DNA of 21,470 nt from a virus: positions 1-21,470 of IMG/VR virus record IMGVR_UViG_3300020182_000206, one strand, 5' to 3'. A program made the translations under genes and the position numbers. Numbering within the stretch: the first letter of the stretch is position 1; each line of letters opens with the position of its first letter. Shown in pieces: positions 1 through 17,233 of this stretch. The notes beneath the pieces were generated by a model. It was not told where the DNA came from. It was given only the letters and a program-made list of their open reading frames with translations, and did not search any database.

Positions 1-854
1 AGAGTTTGTTTATGCAAAACTTGGCAGTTAATTGGATGGAAGCTGGGCTTAATGGGACTTATATTACATTGGAGCTCAGTGAGGGCTTGACAGCCATGCG
101 ACTTGATAGTATGTTAACTGGAACACCTAGCAAACAGTTGTTTAAAGATATTGACACTGTTGAAATGAAAGTCAAGATGGCGGGCAAAAAAGCAGGCAAT
201 CTGCAGATTAAATACATGCCAGCACAAAGCACTGTTAACGATATTCGTGCATTTGTAAAAGAACTTAGCATTAAACAAGGCAAAGACATTGACTTTATGC
301 TGGTTGACTATTTGGACTTGCTTATGCCAGTGAGTGCAAAGGTTAGCCCAAACGATTTGTTTGTTAAAGACAAGTATGTAAGTGAAGAACTTCGCAACTT
401 GGCACGTGAATTAAACATATTATTTGTTACAGCAAGTCAGTTGAACAGAAGTGCTGTGGAAGAGATTGAATTTGATCACTCGCACATCTCGGGTGGTATT
501 AGTAAGATTAACACAGCAGACAATGTGTTTGGTATTTTTACAAGTAGAGCAATGAAAGAACGTGGGCGCTATCAAATACAAGCAATGAAAACCAGAAGCA
601 GTAGTGGTGTTGGACAAAAGATTGACTTGGAGTTCGACATGGAAAGTCTGAGGATCACTGGACTGGATGACGACGAAGCAGCATCGGGTGCAGGCACACA
701 AGGCAGCACTATATTAGCAGGCATTAAAGCAAAAAGTCAAATGGTGCAAAAAGACGTAACTGACAGCATGCCGCAAGATGCTCCCAAGGTAGTGGCCGAT
801 GTACAGAGCAGCAAGCTCAAACAAATGCTAGCAGGAATTAAACAAAACGGATAA
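1..854 (+). CDS. 41: Replicative DNA helicase (T4 gp41-like), 3' part
   Basis: This is the C-terminal RecA-like motor domain of a DnaB/T4 gp41-type hexameric helicase, which unwinds DNA at the phage fork and works with primase. The reading frame is already open at base 3 (AGT, Ser), followed by LFMQNLAVNWM. That Ser is probably the last residue of the Walker A motif GKS, so the gene begins upstream and the TTG at base 6 is not a real start. YITLELSE (Walker A-following strand with the catalytic Glu region) comes next. Walker B is FMLVDYLDLL, with its Asp codon at 306-308. TASQLNR, near 427-447, is the sensor/Gln motif. The last ~65 residues are a Gln/Lys-rich tail ending in KQMLAGIKQNG. The stop is 5 bases before the radical SAM gene. 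Family assignment is firm; exact gp41 orthology is inferred. Confidence 0.9.
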   Translation, partial: SLFMQNLAVNWMEAGLNGTYITLELSEGLTAMRLDSMLTGTPSKQLFKDIDTVEMKVKMAGKKAGNLQIKYMPAQSTVNDIRAFVKELSIKQGKDIDFMLVDYLDLLMPVSAKVSPNDLFVKDKYVSEELRNLARELNILFVTASQLNRSAVEEIEFDHSHISGGISKINTADNVFGIFTSRAMKERGRYQIQAMKTRSSSGVGQKIDLEFDMESLRITGLDDDEAASGAGTQGSTILAGIKAKSQMVQKDVTDSMPQDAPKVVADVQSSKLKQMLAGIKQNG

Positions 855-1826: not shown

Positions 1827-2087
1827 ATGCAAAAAAAGACTCGCAGCATCTTTGATGAGCTGGATGGCATTTACAATGAGCGTTATAAAAAACTCGAAGA
1901 ACGTGAATATGTTGTTGAGAGTCGTGCTAGTAATGTTATTGCTAGTGCAGTGCGTCTGATGGAACAAATTGAAGAATTATATACCGCTGAGCAAGCTGAA
2001 AATTTACAACGCAAATTGTTAAATGCCATCCGAGCACGAGATCCTGGCAAGTTTTCTAGATCGGTAAGGCGCACAAATGAAAAGTAA
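1827..2087 (+). CDS. Small conserved helical protein, function unknown
   Basis: 86 residues, charged and predicted largely helical. An N-terminal KTRSIFDELDGIY segment is followed by YKKLEEREYVVESRASNVIASAVRLMEQIEELY, which has a heptad-like character. The basic C-terminus contains KFSRSVRRTNEK. I recall similar short proteins in marine T4-like phages, but no function is known to me. The start is supported by AAGGA at 1811-1815 and the late-type motifs upstream. The last 11 bases overlap the next gene, so the two are probably co-translated. As first gene of a four-gene late-type run it may be a virion assembly or packaging accessory; this is inference. Confidence 0.75.
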   Translation: MQKKTRSIFDELDGIYNERYKKLEEREYVVESRASNVIASAVRLMEQIEELYTAEQAENLQRKLLNAIRARDPGKFSRSVRRTNEK

Positions 2088-2721: not shown

Positions 2722-4602
2722 ATGAAACTTCTCAAGGAAGGCGGCAACGTTTTTAAAGATTCCGATGGTGCAAGTGCTACACAGCGCATTAACCAAACTG
2801 ATGTTAAGTCAACTGTGGCCTGGCTCGAGCAACTAACTGGACTACCTCTTATGGATAACATGCTGGGAAGCACAGGACAAAAACCAACATCTGGTGATTT
2901 AGACCTTGCAGTTGACAGCACAGTTATGAGCAAAGAAGAACTTAGTAACAGGTTAACACAATGGGCAACCAGTCACGGTTTTGATCCAATGGAGTGGACA
3001 AAGAAAAGCGGTATCAGTGTGCATTTTAAAACACCTATTACGGGACGAGAAGACCGCGGGTATGTGCAAACTGACTTTATGTTTGTGCAAAAGCCAGCGT
3101 TCAGCAAGTTTATACTGCGCAGTGATCCCAACAGTGAATACAAGGGTGCAACACGAAATGTACTCATTAATAGTATTGCAAAAGCGGCAGGTCTTAAACT
3201 CAATCAGAATTCGGGATTGTATCGCAGGGAAGACAATGCATTTATAACTGATGACCCAGATAAAATTGCTACGCTGTTATTAAATAAAAATGCAAACAGA
3301 GATGACCTAGCTAGTGTAGAATCTATTATGGCCCAACTTAAATCAGACAAGCAACGTGATGCTAAACTAGATGATTTCCGTGGCTACGCTGAACGTGAAG
3401 GTTTTACTTTTGAAGAAGTAAACGAATCCGGAACTGCCTGGCTTGCACGGTTGCGTGATAGAATTGTATACCAGGGCATGGAAGTCATAACCGAAAATCC
3501 ATACACACCTTACAAGCTAACTGAAGGTGTGCGTATTGAGCACCCTGAAGACTTGATCTTTGATTACGGCAGTAAAGGTCTTACACAAGCACTTGCAGGT
3601 CTCAAAAGTGCTGCCGCAGAACCTGCTAAAACAAACACTATTAAATGGGACGGCAAGCCAGCAGTTATATTTGGTAGAGACAGCACAGGAGACTTTGTGC
3701 TCACTGATAAGTCAGGGTTTCTTGCAAAAGGCTACAACGGCTTGGCCAAGTCTCCAAAAGACATTGAACGTATCATGGGCATGCGCAAAGGCGATAGAAC
3801 AGATCTAATTGCAGTGTATGCTAAATTGTTTCCGTTGCTAAGTCGCACAGTGCCCAAGGACTTCCGTGGATACGTGCAAGGTGATTTGCTGTACAGCGAC
3901 ACTCCTCCATTGGAAGATGGTATGTATGTTTTTACTCCTAATACTGTTACATATCGTGTTGATGCAAACACCCCAATTGGAAAAGCGGTTGGTAATAGTG
4001 AAGCAGGCGTTGCAGTACACACATCAATTGACGGCCCAGGTGGCCCTGCAACTCCTGTTACTAGTGCAGTATTAAACAAAGCACCCGGTGTTCTTATACT
4101 CGACCCAACTATGAAAGACACTGGTAGTAAAATCGAATTAAATGCAAAGTTGATTGCACAAGTGGAAAACATTTACAATAACTATGCACCTGAAATTGAT
4201 GCATTCTTTGCTCCAGGTGAGCTGCGCAGCAGAAAGATAACAAACACACCAGCGTTGATAAAGCAATATATCAACAGCAAAGTGCGCAGTGGCAATTATA
4301 AAAACATGATCAAAGATTTTGGTCCATGGATTGAACAAAAACAACCAACCAAGGCAGCTCGTATCATTGACTGGATGAATCAAAATAAAAGTGCAGTTGC
4401 AGCATTGTTCAGTGGGTTTTTAAACATCAGTCAACTTAAAAATGACTTGGTACGTCAGTTGGATGCACAAGACCAAGATGTAAAAGCTGACATTGAAGGT
4501 GAACCCGGTCATGAAGGATACGTAGGAGCAGGAATGAAGTTTGTGGATCGTATGAGATTTTCGCAAGCTAACTTTGCACAAAATAATCCAGGACAAAACT
4601 AA
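2722..4602 (+). CDS. Two-domain protein: nucleotidyltransferase motif plus DNA/RNA ligase-like motifs
   Basis: 626 residues. The N-terminal region carries the pol-beta superfamily signature: G49-S50, then D59-L-D61 (SGDLDLAVD), with a plausible third carboxylate D118 in VQTDFMF. The C-terminal half has IKWDGKPAVIFGRD with K308-W-D310-G311, matching motif I (KxDG) of covalent nucleotidyltransferases such as DNA/RNA ligases. YVQGDLLYSD at 384-393 is motif III-like, and EAGVAVHT at 427-434 is a possible motif IV. Motif V is not obvious. The residues between (about 185-290) and the last ~130 are helical. Similar large conserved proteins exist in marine T4-like phages, as I recall, without firm function. 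It ends TAATG, sharing one base with the next gene. Both domain readings come from motifs only, so catalytic activity is unproven. Confidence 0.72.
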   Translation: MKLLKEGGNVFKDSDGASATQRINQTDVKSTVAWLEQLTGLPLMDNMLGSTGQKPTSGDLDLAVDSTVMSKEELSNRLTQWATSHGFDPMEWTKKSGISVHFKTPITGREDRGYVQTDFMFVQKPAFSKFILRSDPNSEYKGATRNVLINSIAKAAGLKLNQNSGLYRREDNAFITDDPDKIATLLLNKNANRDDLASVESIMAQLKSDKQRDAKLDDFRGYAEREGFTFEEVNESGTAWLARLRDRIVYQGMEVITENPYTPYKLTEGVRIEHPEDLIFDYGSKGLTQALAGLKSAAAEPAKTNTIKWDGKPAVIFGRDSTGDFVLTDKSGFLAKGYNGLAKSPKDIERIMGMRKGDRTDLIAVYAKLFPLLSRTVPKDFRGYVQGDLLYSDTPPLEDGMYVFTPNTVTYRVDANTPIGKAVGNSEAGVAVHTSIDGPGGPATPVTSAVLNKAPGVLILDPTMKDTGSKIELNAKLIAQVENIYNNYAPEIDAFFAPGELRSRKITNTPALIKQYINSKVRSGNYKNMIKDFGPWIEQKQPTKAARIIDWMNQNKSAVAALFSGFLNISQLKNDLVRQLDAQDQDVKADIEGEPGHEGYVGAGMKFVDRMRFSQANFAQNNPGQN

Positions 4603-5534
4603 TGGATCAGCCAGTAACACAAATACAACTTGATGCACTAGAAAAAGCACTTGATAAAGTGTTTGCCCAAGTAGGAATCGATGTTGAGTTTACAAGACAC
4701 TTTCTGGATCGTGTAAATGATGAACGCAACGTGCGGCAAATTACAATACAAGAGCTGGCAATACTATTTAAAAAAGAATTTCAAAAGTATGCCAAGCCAA
4801 TTGCACAACTAGGACCAGATGCACAAGCGGTGCTGAAAGATTTATCATCGGATATCAATGTGCCGTTTGCACTTGTGTGGGATAGTGCAAACCAGGAACT
4901 AGATTTAATTGCTAAAACTGTGATGCGTAAAAAAGATTTCAAGACTCCTAACAAAGAATTTGCAGTTGAGCAGACAAGCATATTTCACGAGCTCAGCGAA
5001 AGTCGCATGTGGCGACAAATGAAGCAACTAACTGGTCTTAAAATGAGCAAGGTTGCTGAACTGATGTTCGAACAGTTGTTAGCATTGCAGATTTTTGCAC
5101 AAAGCGACCCTGCTTATGCAGCACAACAAGCTGCACAAATTATGAGATTACAAAACTTTGATGGGTTTCGTACCAGCCAACCAGACCTTTACAACGTGTT
5201 AACTATTATGGTTGATCCAGAACGCTTTGACAGTCAAATTGTACAAGATGTACAAGTGAGTGTGCCGGAGTTGCGGTTAAAGCGTAATCTAAGAGCAATA
5301 GCAAAAAACAAATATAATGCCGGCGATTATAATTATTTGATGTTGATGTTACAACGAGAAATGCAAGATTACCTACCGGCTCCGCTGATACAAATGCGTA
5401 GACAAATTGGCAATTGGGATCGTACAAAGCCGCAAGACAGGAAAGTTATTGTAGATCGACTCATGCTGCAAATGCGTGAACGTGGATTTCAAAACGAAAG
5501 TTATGAAAGACTGAGAACACTCGATATTTCATAA
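4602..5534 (+). CDS. Conserved phage protein with N-terminal RFHFL-type small domain, function unknown
   Basis: 310 residues. The first ~115 residues form a compact alpha/beta-looking unit: FTRHFLDRVNDERN, a helix (ITIQELAILFKKEF), then strands FALVWD and ELDLIAKTVMRKKDFKTP. I recall this pattern from other marine T4-like phage proteins. The HxxxR-type opening is vaguely like RelE/barnase-fold phage nucleases, but I cannot show catalytic residues. The remaining ~190 residues are helical, Gln/Ala-rich (AYAAQQAAQIMRLQ) and then basic (PELRLKRNLRAIAKNKY). No membrane segment. The start ATG overlaps the previous stop in TAATG, implying coupled translation with the ligase-like protein and a possible shared task. 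It is the last gene of the run from 1827. Confidence 0.72.
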   Translation: MDQPVTQIQLDALEKALDKVFAQVGIDVEFTRHFLDRVNDERNVRQITIQELAILFKKEFQKYAKPIAQLGPDAQAVLKDLSSDINVPFALVWDSANQELDLIAKTVMRKKDFKTPNKEFAVEQTSIFHELSESRMWRQMKQLTGLKMSKVAELMFEQLLALQIFAQSDPAYAAQQAAQIMRLQNFDGFRTSQPDLYNVLTIMVDPERFDSQIVQDVQVSVPELRLKRNLRAIAKNKYNAGDYNYLMLMLQREMQDYLPAPLIQMRRQIGNWDRTKPQDRKVIVDRLMLQMRERGFQNESYERLRTLDIS

Positions 5535-5924: not shown

Positions 5925-5948
5925 AGCTTGTAGTATTGGACTTTGAAC

Positions 5949-8739: not shown

Positions 8740-8748
8740 AGTAACATG
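8729..8748. repeat. Inverted repeat CATGTTA-N6-TAACATG over -10 and start codon
   Basis: Perfect 7-base arms at 8729-8735 and 8742-8748 flank TGTTAG. The left arm covers the start of the -10 box and the right arm ends with the ATG start codon. It could be an operator. It is unlikely to be an RNA hairpin if transcription starts at the ATG. A dyad of the same arm and loop length lies in the nrdB promoter. Confidence 0.55.
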
Positions 8749-9450
8749 ACATTAATTAAACCCAAGTACGATTATACACCCATTTCCCGTAAACAGATAG
8801 ATGGTAAACGCAAGTACATGACACCCGATGGCGGTGCAGTTGCGAGTGTTACAACTATTCTTGATGCTACAAGCGATAAGTCTGGTCTTATTGCTTGGCG
8901 TAAACGTGTAGGCGAAAAGAAAGCACAAGAAGTTGTAACTGAAGCTGCTGGTGTTGGCACACGTATGCACAAGTATCTTGAGGACTACGTTGAATTCGGC
9001 GAATGGCCCACCCCGGGTAGTAATCCGTTTGCTAAAAAGGCACATGCAATGGCAACACAAGTGCGTGATAATGCTCTAGTAGATGTAGATGAGATTTGGG
9101 GTAGCGAAGTTGCTCTTTATGTTCCGCAGATGTATGCCGGTACTACTGACCTAGTAGGCGTATACAAAGGTCAGCCCTGTATTATGGACTTTAAACAGAC
9201 CAACAAGCCTAAGAAGCTAGAGTATGTACAAAACTACTTCCTACAGCTAGTAGCATACGCAGAAGCACACAACGAAATCTACGGTACCAACATTCGCGAA
9301 GGACATATCTTTATGTGTAGTCGCGGAGATGACGGTATGCTGTTAGGTGGCGAAACTTATCAACAGTTCGATGTGTGGCCAGATGAATACGATGAATGGC
9401 GTAACGAATGGTACAATAGGGTATATACATATTACGAGAAACATGCATAG
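8746..9450 (+). CDS. PD-(D/E)XK exonuclease (MGME1/RecB-like)
   Basis: 234 residues. Metal-dependent DNA exonuclease of the PD-(D/E)XK superfamily, close in motif order to MGME1-like nucleases common in marine phages. The motifs are GTRMHKYLED (H75), E121 in SEVALYVPQMYAGTTDLVG with D135, then D148-F-K150 in CIMDFKQTNKPK, and the QxxxY motif Q167-Y171 (LQLVAYAEAHN). All expected catalytic residues are present, so it should be active. Likely roles are host DNA degradation or recombination and end processing. There is no Shine-Dalgarno before the ATG and the promoter's predicted start coincides with it, so the mRNA may be leaderless. The gene is flanked by late genes but has its own sigma70-like promoter, suggesting early or middle expression. 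Confidence 0.9.
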   Translation: MTLIKPKYDYTPISRKQIDGKRKYMTPDGGAVASVTTILDATSDKSGLIAWRKRVGEKKAQEVVTEAAGVGTRMHKYLEDYVEFGEWPTPGSNPFAKKAHAMATQVRDNALVDVDEIWGSEVALYVPQMYAGTTDLVGVYKGQPCIMDFKQTNKPKKLEYVQNYFLQLVAYAEAHNEIYGTNIREGHIFMCSRGDDGMLLGGETYQQFDVWPDEYDEWRNEWYNRVYTYYEKHA

Positions 9451-15270: not shown

Positions 15271-16524
15271 ATGTCTTATAATGTATGGAACAAATGGGAC
15301 AAGCTTAAAACAGTCATGCTAGGCGAGTGTTATAATCCGGAGTTTTTTCGAGACATTAAAAATTCAAATGTTAAATCTGCATTGCAACGTATTGCCAGCG
15401 AAACCCAAGAAGATCTCGAAAACTATGAACGTGTATTAAAAGATTTTGGGTGTAAAGTATTGCGACCGAATATCGATCGCAATGATTCAATTATAGCACA
15501 TGTAAACAATGACGGCAAAGTAGCGAACATACCTCGCAGTCCTCTTCAGCCAAGAGATACTCAGATGGTTATCGGTAATGAGTTATTTTATACTGGAAGT
15601 GACCATCATGGAATAGCTTCGGCACTTAGTGAGTACAATTCCCAAGATACACCAGTGGTTGCAAATATGGCGTTACGCCAGGTGGACTTTAACAACTACA
15701 AAGGCGAAGATGCACCAGACTGGCCAAGCTACGAAGAATACCTGCATTGTTTTACAAAAGATCTTCAATTTTCTAGTAATCTAGCTGTATGCAACGAAAT
15801 AAAAGAAGAGCAACGTAAAATAAATTCTCTTAGCGCCAACAAGAGAAACTTTTTTCCAGTTGACGCTCCTTCTATTACTGTTGTTGGCAAGGATGTTTAT
15901 GTTGATGTAAAAATAACAGATCAAGATTGTTTAGAATATCCTTTTTTGTTGACACATTATTTCGACCATCTACAAAATCTATTTCCAAGTTTTCGATTTA
16001 ATTTTTTAAATATTGGCGGACACAATGACGGATGTTTTCATACTATTAAACCAAATGCAATATTGAGTCTCAATGAAATTCAAACCTATAGTAATACATT
16101 TCCGGGATGGGATGTGTGTTATTTGCCAGATCAAAGCTTTGACAAAATTGAAAAGTTTATAAAACTTAAAAAACAAAACAAAGGCAAATGGTGGGTCCCT
16201 GGTGAAGAAGATAATAACGAATTTACACATTTTGTAGAAACGTGGTTACAAGACTGGCTGGGATATGTAGAAGAAACAGTGTTTGATGTTAATGTTCTTG
16301 TGTTAGACGAACATCATGTGTGTGTAAGTCAGCCAGATAATAAGATTGTAAATGAATTTCTTAAAAAACATAATATGGAGCCCGTGTACATTCCGTGGCG
16401 ACATAGGTATTTCTGGGATGGCGGATTGCATTGCATTACCTTAGATCTTGTACGTGAAGGTACCCAACAAGACTATTTTCCACAACGAACAGCTCCGATA
16501 ACAGATAAAGGATACTCATTATAA
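15271..16524 (+). CDS. Glycine amidinotransferase-like protein (guanidine-modifying superfamily)
   Basis: 417 residues. The beta/alpha propeller superfamily includes arginine:glycine amidinotransferase (GATM), which moves the amidino group of arginine to an acceptor amine. VWNKWDKLKTVMLGECYNPE opens the fold. P94-R95-D96 with VIGNELF matches the PRDxxxVxGNE motif. H251-N-D253 (IGGHNDGCFHTIKPN) is the catalytic His-x-Asp. C388 in WDGGLHCITLDLVREGTQQD is the nucleophile. DAPSITVVGKD at 198-208 aligns with the GATM FDAAD segment but has Ser where the second Asp would be. The acceptor is unknown: glycine, lysine, another amine or a protein are possible. It is tightly coupled between glutaredoxin (adjacent) and the 29-residue peptide (TAATG overlap). 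Parts of the gene look more AT-rich than nrdB. Confidence 0.85.
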   Translation: MSYNVWNKWDKLKTVMLGECYNPEFFRDIKNSNVKSALQRIASETQEDLENYERVLKDFGCKVLRPNIDRNDSIIAHVNNDGKVANIPRSPLQPRDTQMVIGNELFYTGSDHHGIASALSEYNSQDTPVVANMALRQVDFNNYKGEDAPDWPSYEEYLHCFTKDLQFSSNLAVCNEIKEEQRKINSLSANKRNFFPVDAPSITVVGKDVYVDVKITDQDCLEYPFLLTHYFDHLQNLFPSFRFNFLNIGGHNDGCFHTIKPNAILSLNEIQTYSNTFPGWDVCYLPDQSFDKIEKFIKLKKQNKGKWWVPGEEDNNEFTHFVETWLQDWLGYVEETVFDVNVLVLDEHHVCVSQPDNKIVNEFLKKHNMEPVYIPWRHRYFWDGGLHCITLDLVREGTQQDYFPQRTAPITDKGYSL

Positions 16525-16917: not shown

Positions 16918-16939
16918 TGTTGTAATAGTGAGGATGAAT

Positions 16940-17233
16940 ATGCCACAGGCAGTAAGAATAGGTGATGCAAACAGCATGGGCGGCATTGCAATAGGCCCAG
17001 GTGCATTAAGTGTGCTAATCAATGGTCAACCGGCGTGCCTTGAATTTACACCGGTTAGCCCACATCCGTGTTGCGGCCCAGGTCCTTGTGCAAAACATTG
17101 CACTGCAAAAACCTCACTAGGATCGCCCAGTGTGTTGGCAGAATTTCAAACAATTAACTTTGTTGGCAATGTTGATTCGTGTTTTGACAGTCGCACACAA
17201 GGTAGCCCAGACGTAATAATTGGTGCAATGTGA
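16940..17233 (+). CDS. 5.4: PAAR spike-tip protein (T4 gp5.4-like)
   Basis: 97 residues from ATG 16940, the length of T4 gp5.4. GAGG at 16930-16933 is well spaced for this ATG and would fall inside the longer versions starting at 16928 or 16934. PAAR proteins cap the central spike of the baseplate and sharpen it for membrane piercing. AVRIGDANSMGG, then LSVLINGQPACLEF (PAAR strands) and LGSPSVLAEF, and a terminal QGSPDVIIGAM, follow the family repeat pattern. H42, C44, C45, C50, H53 and C54 give a cysteine-rich cluster that could bind the usual metal ion, with more Cys than typical. The stop is one base before the next ATG. Confidence 0.88.
   Translation: MPQAVRIGDANSMGGIAIGPGALSVLINGQPACLEFTPVSPHPCCGPGPCAKHCTAKTSLGSPSVLAEFQTINFVGNVDSCFDSRTQGSPDVIIGAM

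Follow-up and report, generated by a model that had tools for sequence, protein, structure and literature searches.

The window, that is, the whole stretch of DNA analysed here, is a 21,470-base virus record in which one ORF joins a predicted Pol X-like nucleotidyltransferase (NTase) to a predicted ligase-like domain. The ORF is genuine; it opens with an ATG preceded by an AAGG-type sequence, a plausible ribosome-binding site, and its stop codon shares the sequence TAATG with the next gene in a one-base overlap. Its product, the domains and motifs recognized in it and the most informative neighbours are listed in Table 1.

Table 1. Features in and around the gene for the two-domain protein (positions are those of the window)
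Feature	Positions	Strand	Basis
Replicative helicase (DnaB/gp41), end	3..854	+	PF03796, E 8.7e-12; same position in 72/91 loci
Conserved neighbour, 86 aa (phrog_11854, virion structural)	1827..2087	+	Same position in 103/109 loci and in two jumbo phages
Two-domain protein, 626 aa: Pol X-like nucleotidyltransferase and DUF6267 ligase-like domain	2722..4602	+	ORF, relatives, alignment
Leader MKLLKE with predicted prohead-protease site L4-K5-E6↓G7-G8	2722..2739	+	[LIV]xE↓GG in 129/129
Domain 1, residues 7-233, predicted Pol beta superfamily, palm and thumb like family X	2740..3420	+	AlphaFold2, Foldseek
Flexible linker, residues about 234-269	3421..3528	+	Low pLDDT at 234-237 and 252-269
Domain 2, residues 270-626, DUF6267, predicted covalent nucleotidyltransferase (ligase-like)	3529..4599	+	PF19782, model, Foldseek
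Motif I, K308-W-D-G	3643..3654	+	Identical throughout the 129 homologues and 52 DUF6267 sequences from the two groups
Motif III-like, G383-Y-V-Q-G-D388-L-L	3868..3891	+	G383 and D388 invariant; strand 383-391
Motif IV, E598-G-Y-V601, and motif V, K606-F-V608-D-R610	4513..4551	+	Invariant where aligned; strands 599-602 and 605-608
Overlapping downstream neighbour, 310 aa	4602..5534	+	TAATG; found in 40/120 eligible loci

Gene order within the fused lineage is strongly kept, and the downstream genes at 5943, 6437, 6670, 7118 and 8370 recur in 99/101, 92/93, 81/87, 74/74 and 65/68 loci, respectively. A radical SAM gene (860-1780) lies between the helicase and the conserved block and seems to be a variable insertion, as only 35 of the 103 eligible relatives have it. 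The initial annotation had placed the gene in a late-type operon, which stands as far as the flanking genes are co-directional and, by family, partly virion-structural; however, the T4 late-promoter octamer TATAAATA occurs nowhere in the 21,470 bases and the conserved upstream neighbour is a replicative helicase. The product of 4602-5534 is homologous to the C-terminus of a 602-aa protein of Sinorhizobium phage phiM12, the N-terminal part of which looks by eye like a degenerate cytidylyltransferase, tying this neighbour to the theme of the cyanophage cytidylyltransferase T4-GC190 taken up below. Further downstream, 8746-9450 encodes a candidate RecB-like PD-(D/E)xK nuclease (PF12705, E 0.004, below cut-off), whose position is kept in 47 of 61 related loci.

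The two-domain protein is not a chance arrangement, since at least 599 stretches found in an IMG/VR scan with the window protein match it and encode relatives. Its carriers include many large uncultured phages of water. From the loci kept from three scans, 128 homologues were aligned with the window protein, giving 129 full-length sequences that reach down to about 50% identity. The motifs G49-S50, D59-x-D61, D118 and K308-W-D-G all lie where the initial annotation had put them, and G49, S50, D59, D61, D118, K308, W309, D310 and G311 are 100% identical in 129/129, so that no aligned homologue without D59, D61 or K308 was met. Among annotated phages, none of the 227 matching records covers 80% of the protein; cyanophages match through domain 2 only, and Phosso, Atu_ph07 and PA5oct-type phages through domain 1. 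Scans with the jumbo-phage NTases as queries returned few relatives. The family appears to be phage-borne, because 84,980 cellular genomes gave one contig only, a MAG fragment with DUF6267 alone. On this contig, binned as a Rickettsiales MAG (L273), the DUF6267 protein at 739-1980 carries an N-terminal extension that ends directly before the domain in NIAE↓G, a T4-like cleavage site; the contig is probably a phage sequence. The same MAG also holds, in L274, a family X polymerase core within a very long open frame (1327 aa).

Domain 1 is predicted to adopt a minimal family-X-like polymerase fold with palm and thumb. The AlphaFold2 model of the full protein (57 homologues as input) has an overall pLDDT of 88, with values mostly of 87-97 over the domain 1 block and below 50 only at residues 1-6, 234-237 and 252-269. 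When domain 1 was compared with the PDB using Foldseek, the best 50 matches were all Pol lambda, beta, mu or TdT (best E 0.003, probability 0.97-1.00), which agrees with the polymerase-beta-type motif read initially and does not point to an unrelated fold. The features of the Pol beta superfamily are found together in it, namely GS at 49-50, D59, D61, the third acid D118 and, by prediction, the superfamily fold. By eye, the motif G-S-x6-S-G-D-x-D (GSTGQKPTSGDLD) and a later segment, YKG...R...AxxxGxKLN...GL, are together similar to the palm and thumb of Pol X. At the level of sequence, domain 1 is with certainty homologous to the NTases that Phosso, Atu_ph07 and a 462-kb contig (L284) encode as standalone proteins (hhalign E 1.4e-27). 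As for family X itself, its Pfam palm model matched none of 57 diverse members, its thumb model reached two of the 57 with no match above threshold (best E 0.21), and the palm model PF14792 was absent from five large relatives; the domain 1 profile compared by hhalign with two bacterial PolX cores did not rise above shuffled controls, and PDB sequence searches, whether run with the full protein, a family profile or a domain 1 profile, gave chance matches only. Because these sequence-level tests fall short of significance, we claim a Pol X fold and not family X membership. No HhH/8-kDa DNA-binding domain is seen in the protein, where the confident fold begins at about residue 11 and the palm motif lies at 49; this domain is also missing from some known viral Pol X.

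Domain 2 belongs to DUF6267, matching PF19782 with E 7.9e-50 and 170.7 bits (gathering cut-off 27) over model positions 4-374 of 376, and the same model matched all 57 diverse members tested. It is a member of phrog_455, DUF6267 carries no assigned function, and the name did not appear in the literature searched. Together with DUF6267 of cyanophages (phrog_455, T4-GC 71; here loci L191-L270, L086 and L282) it forms one family, in which KWDG and the distal EGxV...KxVxR are kept at about 30% identity; across both DUF6267 groups, wherever aligned, K308-W-D-G, K330, G383/D388, N407, E598-G-x-V and K606-x-V-x-R are invariant. Thus motifs I, III, IV and V of covalent nucleotidyltransferases are present in order, including motif V (K606-F-V608-D-R610), which had initially been reported as not clearly found and which follows motif IV (E598-G599-Y-V601). 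Placing motif IV at residues 427-433 (EAGVAVH) was tried and dropped, as E427 is kept in 69/129, whereas E598-G599 shows no variation in the sequences aligned there. Motifs IV and V thus lie at the very end of the protein, beyond a large helical insertion (475-582), and no OB-fold is apparent in the domain.

A separate model of domain 2, built from 52 sequences including cyanophage-type members from IMG/VR, reached pLDDT 93 and pTM 0.88. Its top 20 PDB matches in Foldseek were all ligases, each of them weak (best E 0.39, probability 0.38), including DNA ligases IV and I, the African swine fever virus ligase, archaeal RNA ligases and fungal tRNA ligases; covalent nucleotidyltransferases made up 39 of the best 50, none individually significant. 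In a BFVD search, an Atu_ph07 "RNA ligase" (probability 0.75) and several DNA ligases of low probability followed below the DUF6267 proteins. Neither PF01068 (ATP-dependent DNA ligase) nor PF09414 (RNA ligase) matched the window protein in Pfam. Taken together, these models and motifs suggest that DUF6267 is a ligase-type covalent nucleotidyltransferase of the ligase/capping superfamily, in line with the ligase-like domain read initially from the KxDG motif, with PDB matches that are individually weak.

Independent support for joining the two activities comes from three jumbo phages, in which the same locus carries two genes. The NTase gene of Phosso and of Atu_ph07 shares an overlap with the gene upstream of it, which encodes E-K-L-D-G-S near the N-terminus and EGVV followed by K...F...N, and L284 has the same overlapping pair, ligase-like gene then NTase. 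The three ligase-like partners match the RNA_ligase model PF09414, all below cut-off (E values of 0.002, 0.008 and 0.085), and that of L284 also matches PF19782 (E 0.006) at EGFVV...KIVNR, the motif IV-V end of DUF6267. A profile-profile comparison of domain 2 with the jumbo ligases was marginal (P 0.004), with only motif I aligned. Upstream, Phosso and L284 carry a DnaB helicase and a homologue of 1827-2087 as in the window, and Atu_ph07 carries the helicase. One locus therefore exists in two forms, as a fusion with the NTase in front of the ligase or as a gene pair with the ligase first, and we argue from this overlapping pair in reverse order that the two parts have one joint function, as the initial annotation had proposed in suggesting an end-adding and sealing enzyme.

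We propose, with a probability of about 0.6, that the two-domain protein is a nucleic-acid repair enzyme that adds nucleotides and seals strands. Since a polymerase-type NTase is tied to a ligase-type domain, fill-in followed by sealing is the economical reading, and since the two are fused in one phage protein and form a gene pair in distant phages, a single repair reaction is predicted. We infer that D59, D61 and D118 would form a two-metal site with which domain 1 extends a 3′ end or fills a gap by at least one nucleotide. Domain 2 would then transfer AMP from a nucleotide cofactor onto K308 and from K308 to a 5′ phosphate, after which the strand would be sealed. The flexible linker could allow both domains to act on one broken end, and the protein would correspond to the jumbo-phage NTase and ligase-like genes of this locus joined into one.

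The same logic of filling and then sealing is known from family X polymerases that act with a DNA ligase, such as Pol lambda or mu with ligase IV in end joining or a viral Pol X with its ligase, and by prediction each domain resembles its counterpart there in fold, domain 2 through individually weak matches. Unlike those systems, the protein described here is fused, shows no HhH/8-kDa, BRCT or OB-fold domain and is not reached by the family X Pfam models. Another precedent is RlaP of large phages, likewise a Polbeta NTase that works with a ligase; in jumbo phages, RlaP NTases occur together with RNA ligases and have been predicted to put back missing nucleotides ahead of the ligation step (PMC7824862). 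Our protein differs from that pair in being one polypeptide, in lacking a sequence match to RlaP and in having family X polymerases as the closest match of domain 1 among solved structures. Cyanophage members of DUF6267 have no Pol X-like domain; their partner, coupled or fused, is the cytidylyltransferase T4-GC190. No phage Pol X or Pol X-ligase fusion was named in the titles and abstracts that the literature searches listed. The partnership of a Polbeta NTase with a ligase is already known, and, as far as our searches show, the fusion, the link to DUF6267 and the leader are new.

As for the substrate, DNA and RNA appear about equally likely. DNA is favoured by the closest structural matches, which for either domain are DNA enzymes, and by the adjoining replicative helicase; in favour of RNA are the split partner's match to RNA_ligase and the standard ATP-dependent DNA ligase that three of the five large relatives already possess. 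An RNA-specific sub-case, whose probability overlaps with that of the general repair reading, is anti-defence tRNA repair, in which domain 1 would restore what a cut anticodon loop has lost and domain 2 would act as an RNA ligase, making the protein a fused analogue of the RlaP NTase and RNA ligase pair. The part ascribed to RlaP NTases in jumbo phages, the match of the split partner to PF09414, weak as it is, and the separate DNA ligases are consistent with it, as is a domain 2 without an OB-fold, like T4 Rnl1, which shows none. Yet RlaP PF10127 matched neither the window protein nor, even at E 10, the five large relatives; the window is without a tRNA gene, no kinase or phosphatase domain for end healing is seen beside the protein, and the DNA-enzyme folds and the helicase speak against it here. 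On balance, we regard tRNA repair as conceivable and rather unlikely.

The leader has the form of a T4-type prohead-protease site; its P3 residue is Leu or Ile in 128/129 sequences, P2 and P4 vary freely, and its length up to the Glu is 4-9 residues, apart from one homologue annotated with a longer start. Since residues 1-6 are disordered in the AlphaFold2 model, the fold does not explain why E6 is invariant. Moreover, the jumbo-phage NTase relatives begin directly with M-G-G or M-S-G, where a protein cut after E6 would start. The T4-type prohead protease PF03420 is found in five of eight relatives' records, the five largest (the window is too short to tell), which also encode a gp23 capsid protein, and AL[LM]E↓GL is a conserved site close to the N-terminus in the capsid sequences of four large relatives. 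In T4, gp21 cuts off propeptides of 7 to 65 residues, and in the 10-residue targeting sequence of IPIII it is residues 8 and 10 (P3 and P1) that matter for processing (PMC9026906). The T4 internal head proteins (IPI-III, Alt), with their protease-cleaved propeptides, likewise carry [L/I]xE↓G right at the start of the chain, although the leader here, of 4-7 residues in nearly all sequences, is shorter than most targeting sequences and would be packaged only by prediction. A genome-wide count of N-terminal [LI]xE[AG] was about threefold the background in G001 and at background in G004 and G005; not being raised in two of the three large relatives, it was set aside as proof of packaging.

Cyanophages offer a positive control for reading the leader in this way. 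There, the gene directly after DUF6267 encodes T4-GC190, which was found experimentally in S-SM1 virions (PMC3037559), and a cytidylyltransferase is present in S-CREM2 virions (PMC10665884). The leader of T4-GC190, M[RK]...F[IL]xE↓A, occurs in 41/41 distinct IMG/VR sequences and in S-SM1 (MKKFSAFLNE↓A). In PA5oct, the relative of domain 1 is annotated as a structural protein with an ESI-MS/MS note; this detection in virions may reflect contamination, because a ribonucleotide reductase there bears the same note. It was also observed that phrog_455 includes a fusion of DUF6267 with the cytidylyltransferase.

The N-terminus thus fits cleavage by a T4 prohead protease, and packaging into virions is plausible on this ground; that the leader is actually cut by such a protease, the enzyme being packaged in the head and entering the cell with the genome, we would put at somewhat below even odds. 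The structural role that the initial annotation had left open may therefore hold partly, in the other sense of an enzyme carried by the virion. A fuller version, in which a fill-in polymerase-ligase packaged in the head is activated or released by the protease and mends gaps, nicks or host cuts in the incoming DNA before phage expression begins, is unlikely as a whole. If the leader is indeed a capsid-targeting propeptide, a repair enzyme carried in the head would be an unusual strategy of counter-defence or genome protection.

Perhaps, after injection, both domains could instead serve one target other than nucleic acid, transferring nucleotides to host proteins or metabolites by NMPylation or a capping-like reaction. 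Polbeta and covalent-NTase folds are both used outside repair, and the HIGH-type cytidylyltransferase of virions to which cyanophage DUF6267 is coupled or fused hints at a nucleotide-centred modification. However, end repair is what one would expect of a Polbeta NTase paired or fused specifically with a ligase-type domain, and the match of domain 1 to family X extends over palm and thumb, a feature of nucleic acid polymerases, so that we hold this explanation to be improbable. Still more doubtful is a catalytically inactive protein that serves head structure or assembly and is retained for its fold; it would suit the virion structural families of the neighbouring genes, the leader and the structural label in PA5oct and yet is hard to hold, because the invariance of all catalytic residues of both domains in 129 divergent homologues, and of the domain 2 motifs in cyanophage-type proteins too, is hard to explain without catalysis.

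Hundreds of T4-like cyanophage records and many large uncultured phages contain DUF6267, and under the preferred reading of fill-in and sealing this family gains a function that can be tested.

Some further genes are worth recording. Motifs like those of PD-(D/E)xK nucleases were seen by eye, without Pfam support, at L085 4640-6004, L086 4738-5910, L271 7204-8289 and L084 6647-7666, genes that directly precede DUF6267 in cyanophages and Melnitz or lie close to the NTase in PA5oct. Within the window, the product of 15271-16524 is amidinotransferase-like by eye, without a Pfam match, and a start resembling it was seen in G001 (232028-233074), close to the homologue but on the other strand. Finally, 16928-17233 encodes what looks by eye like a PAAR-like spike-tip protein, and a similar gene is present in G004 (92294-92581).
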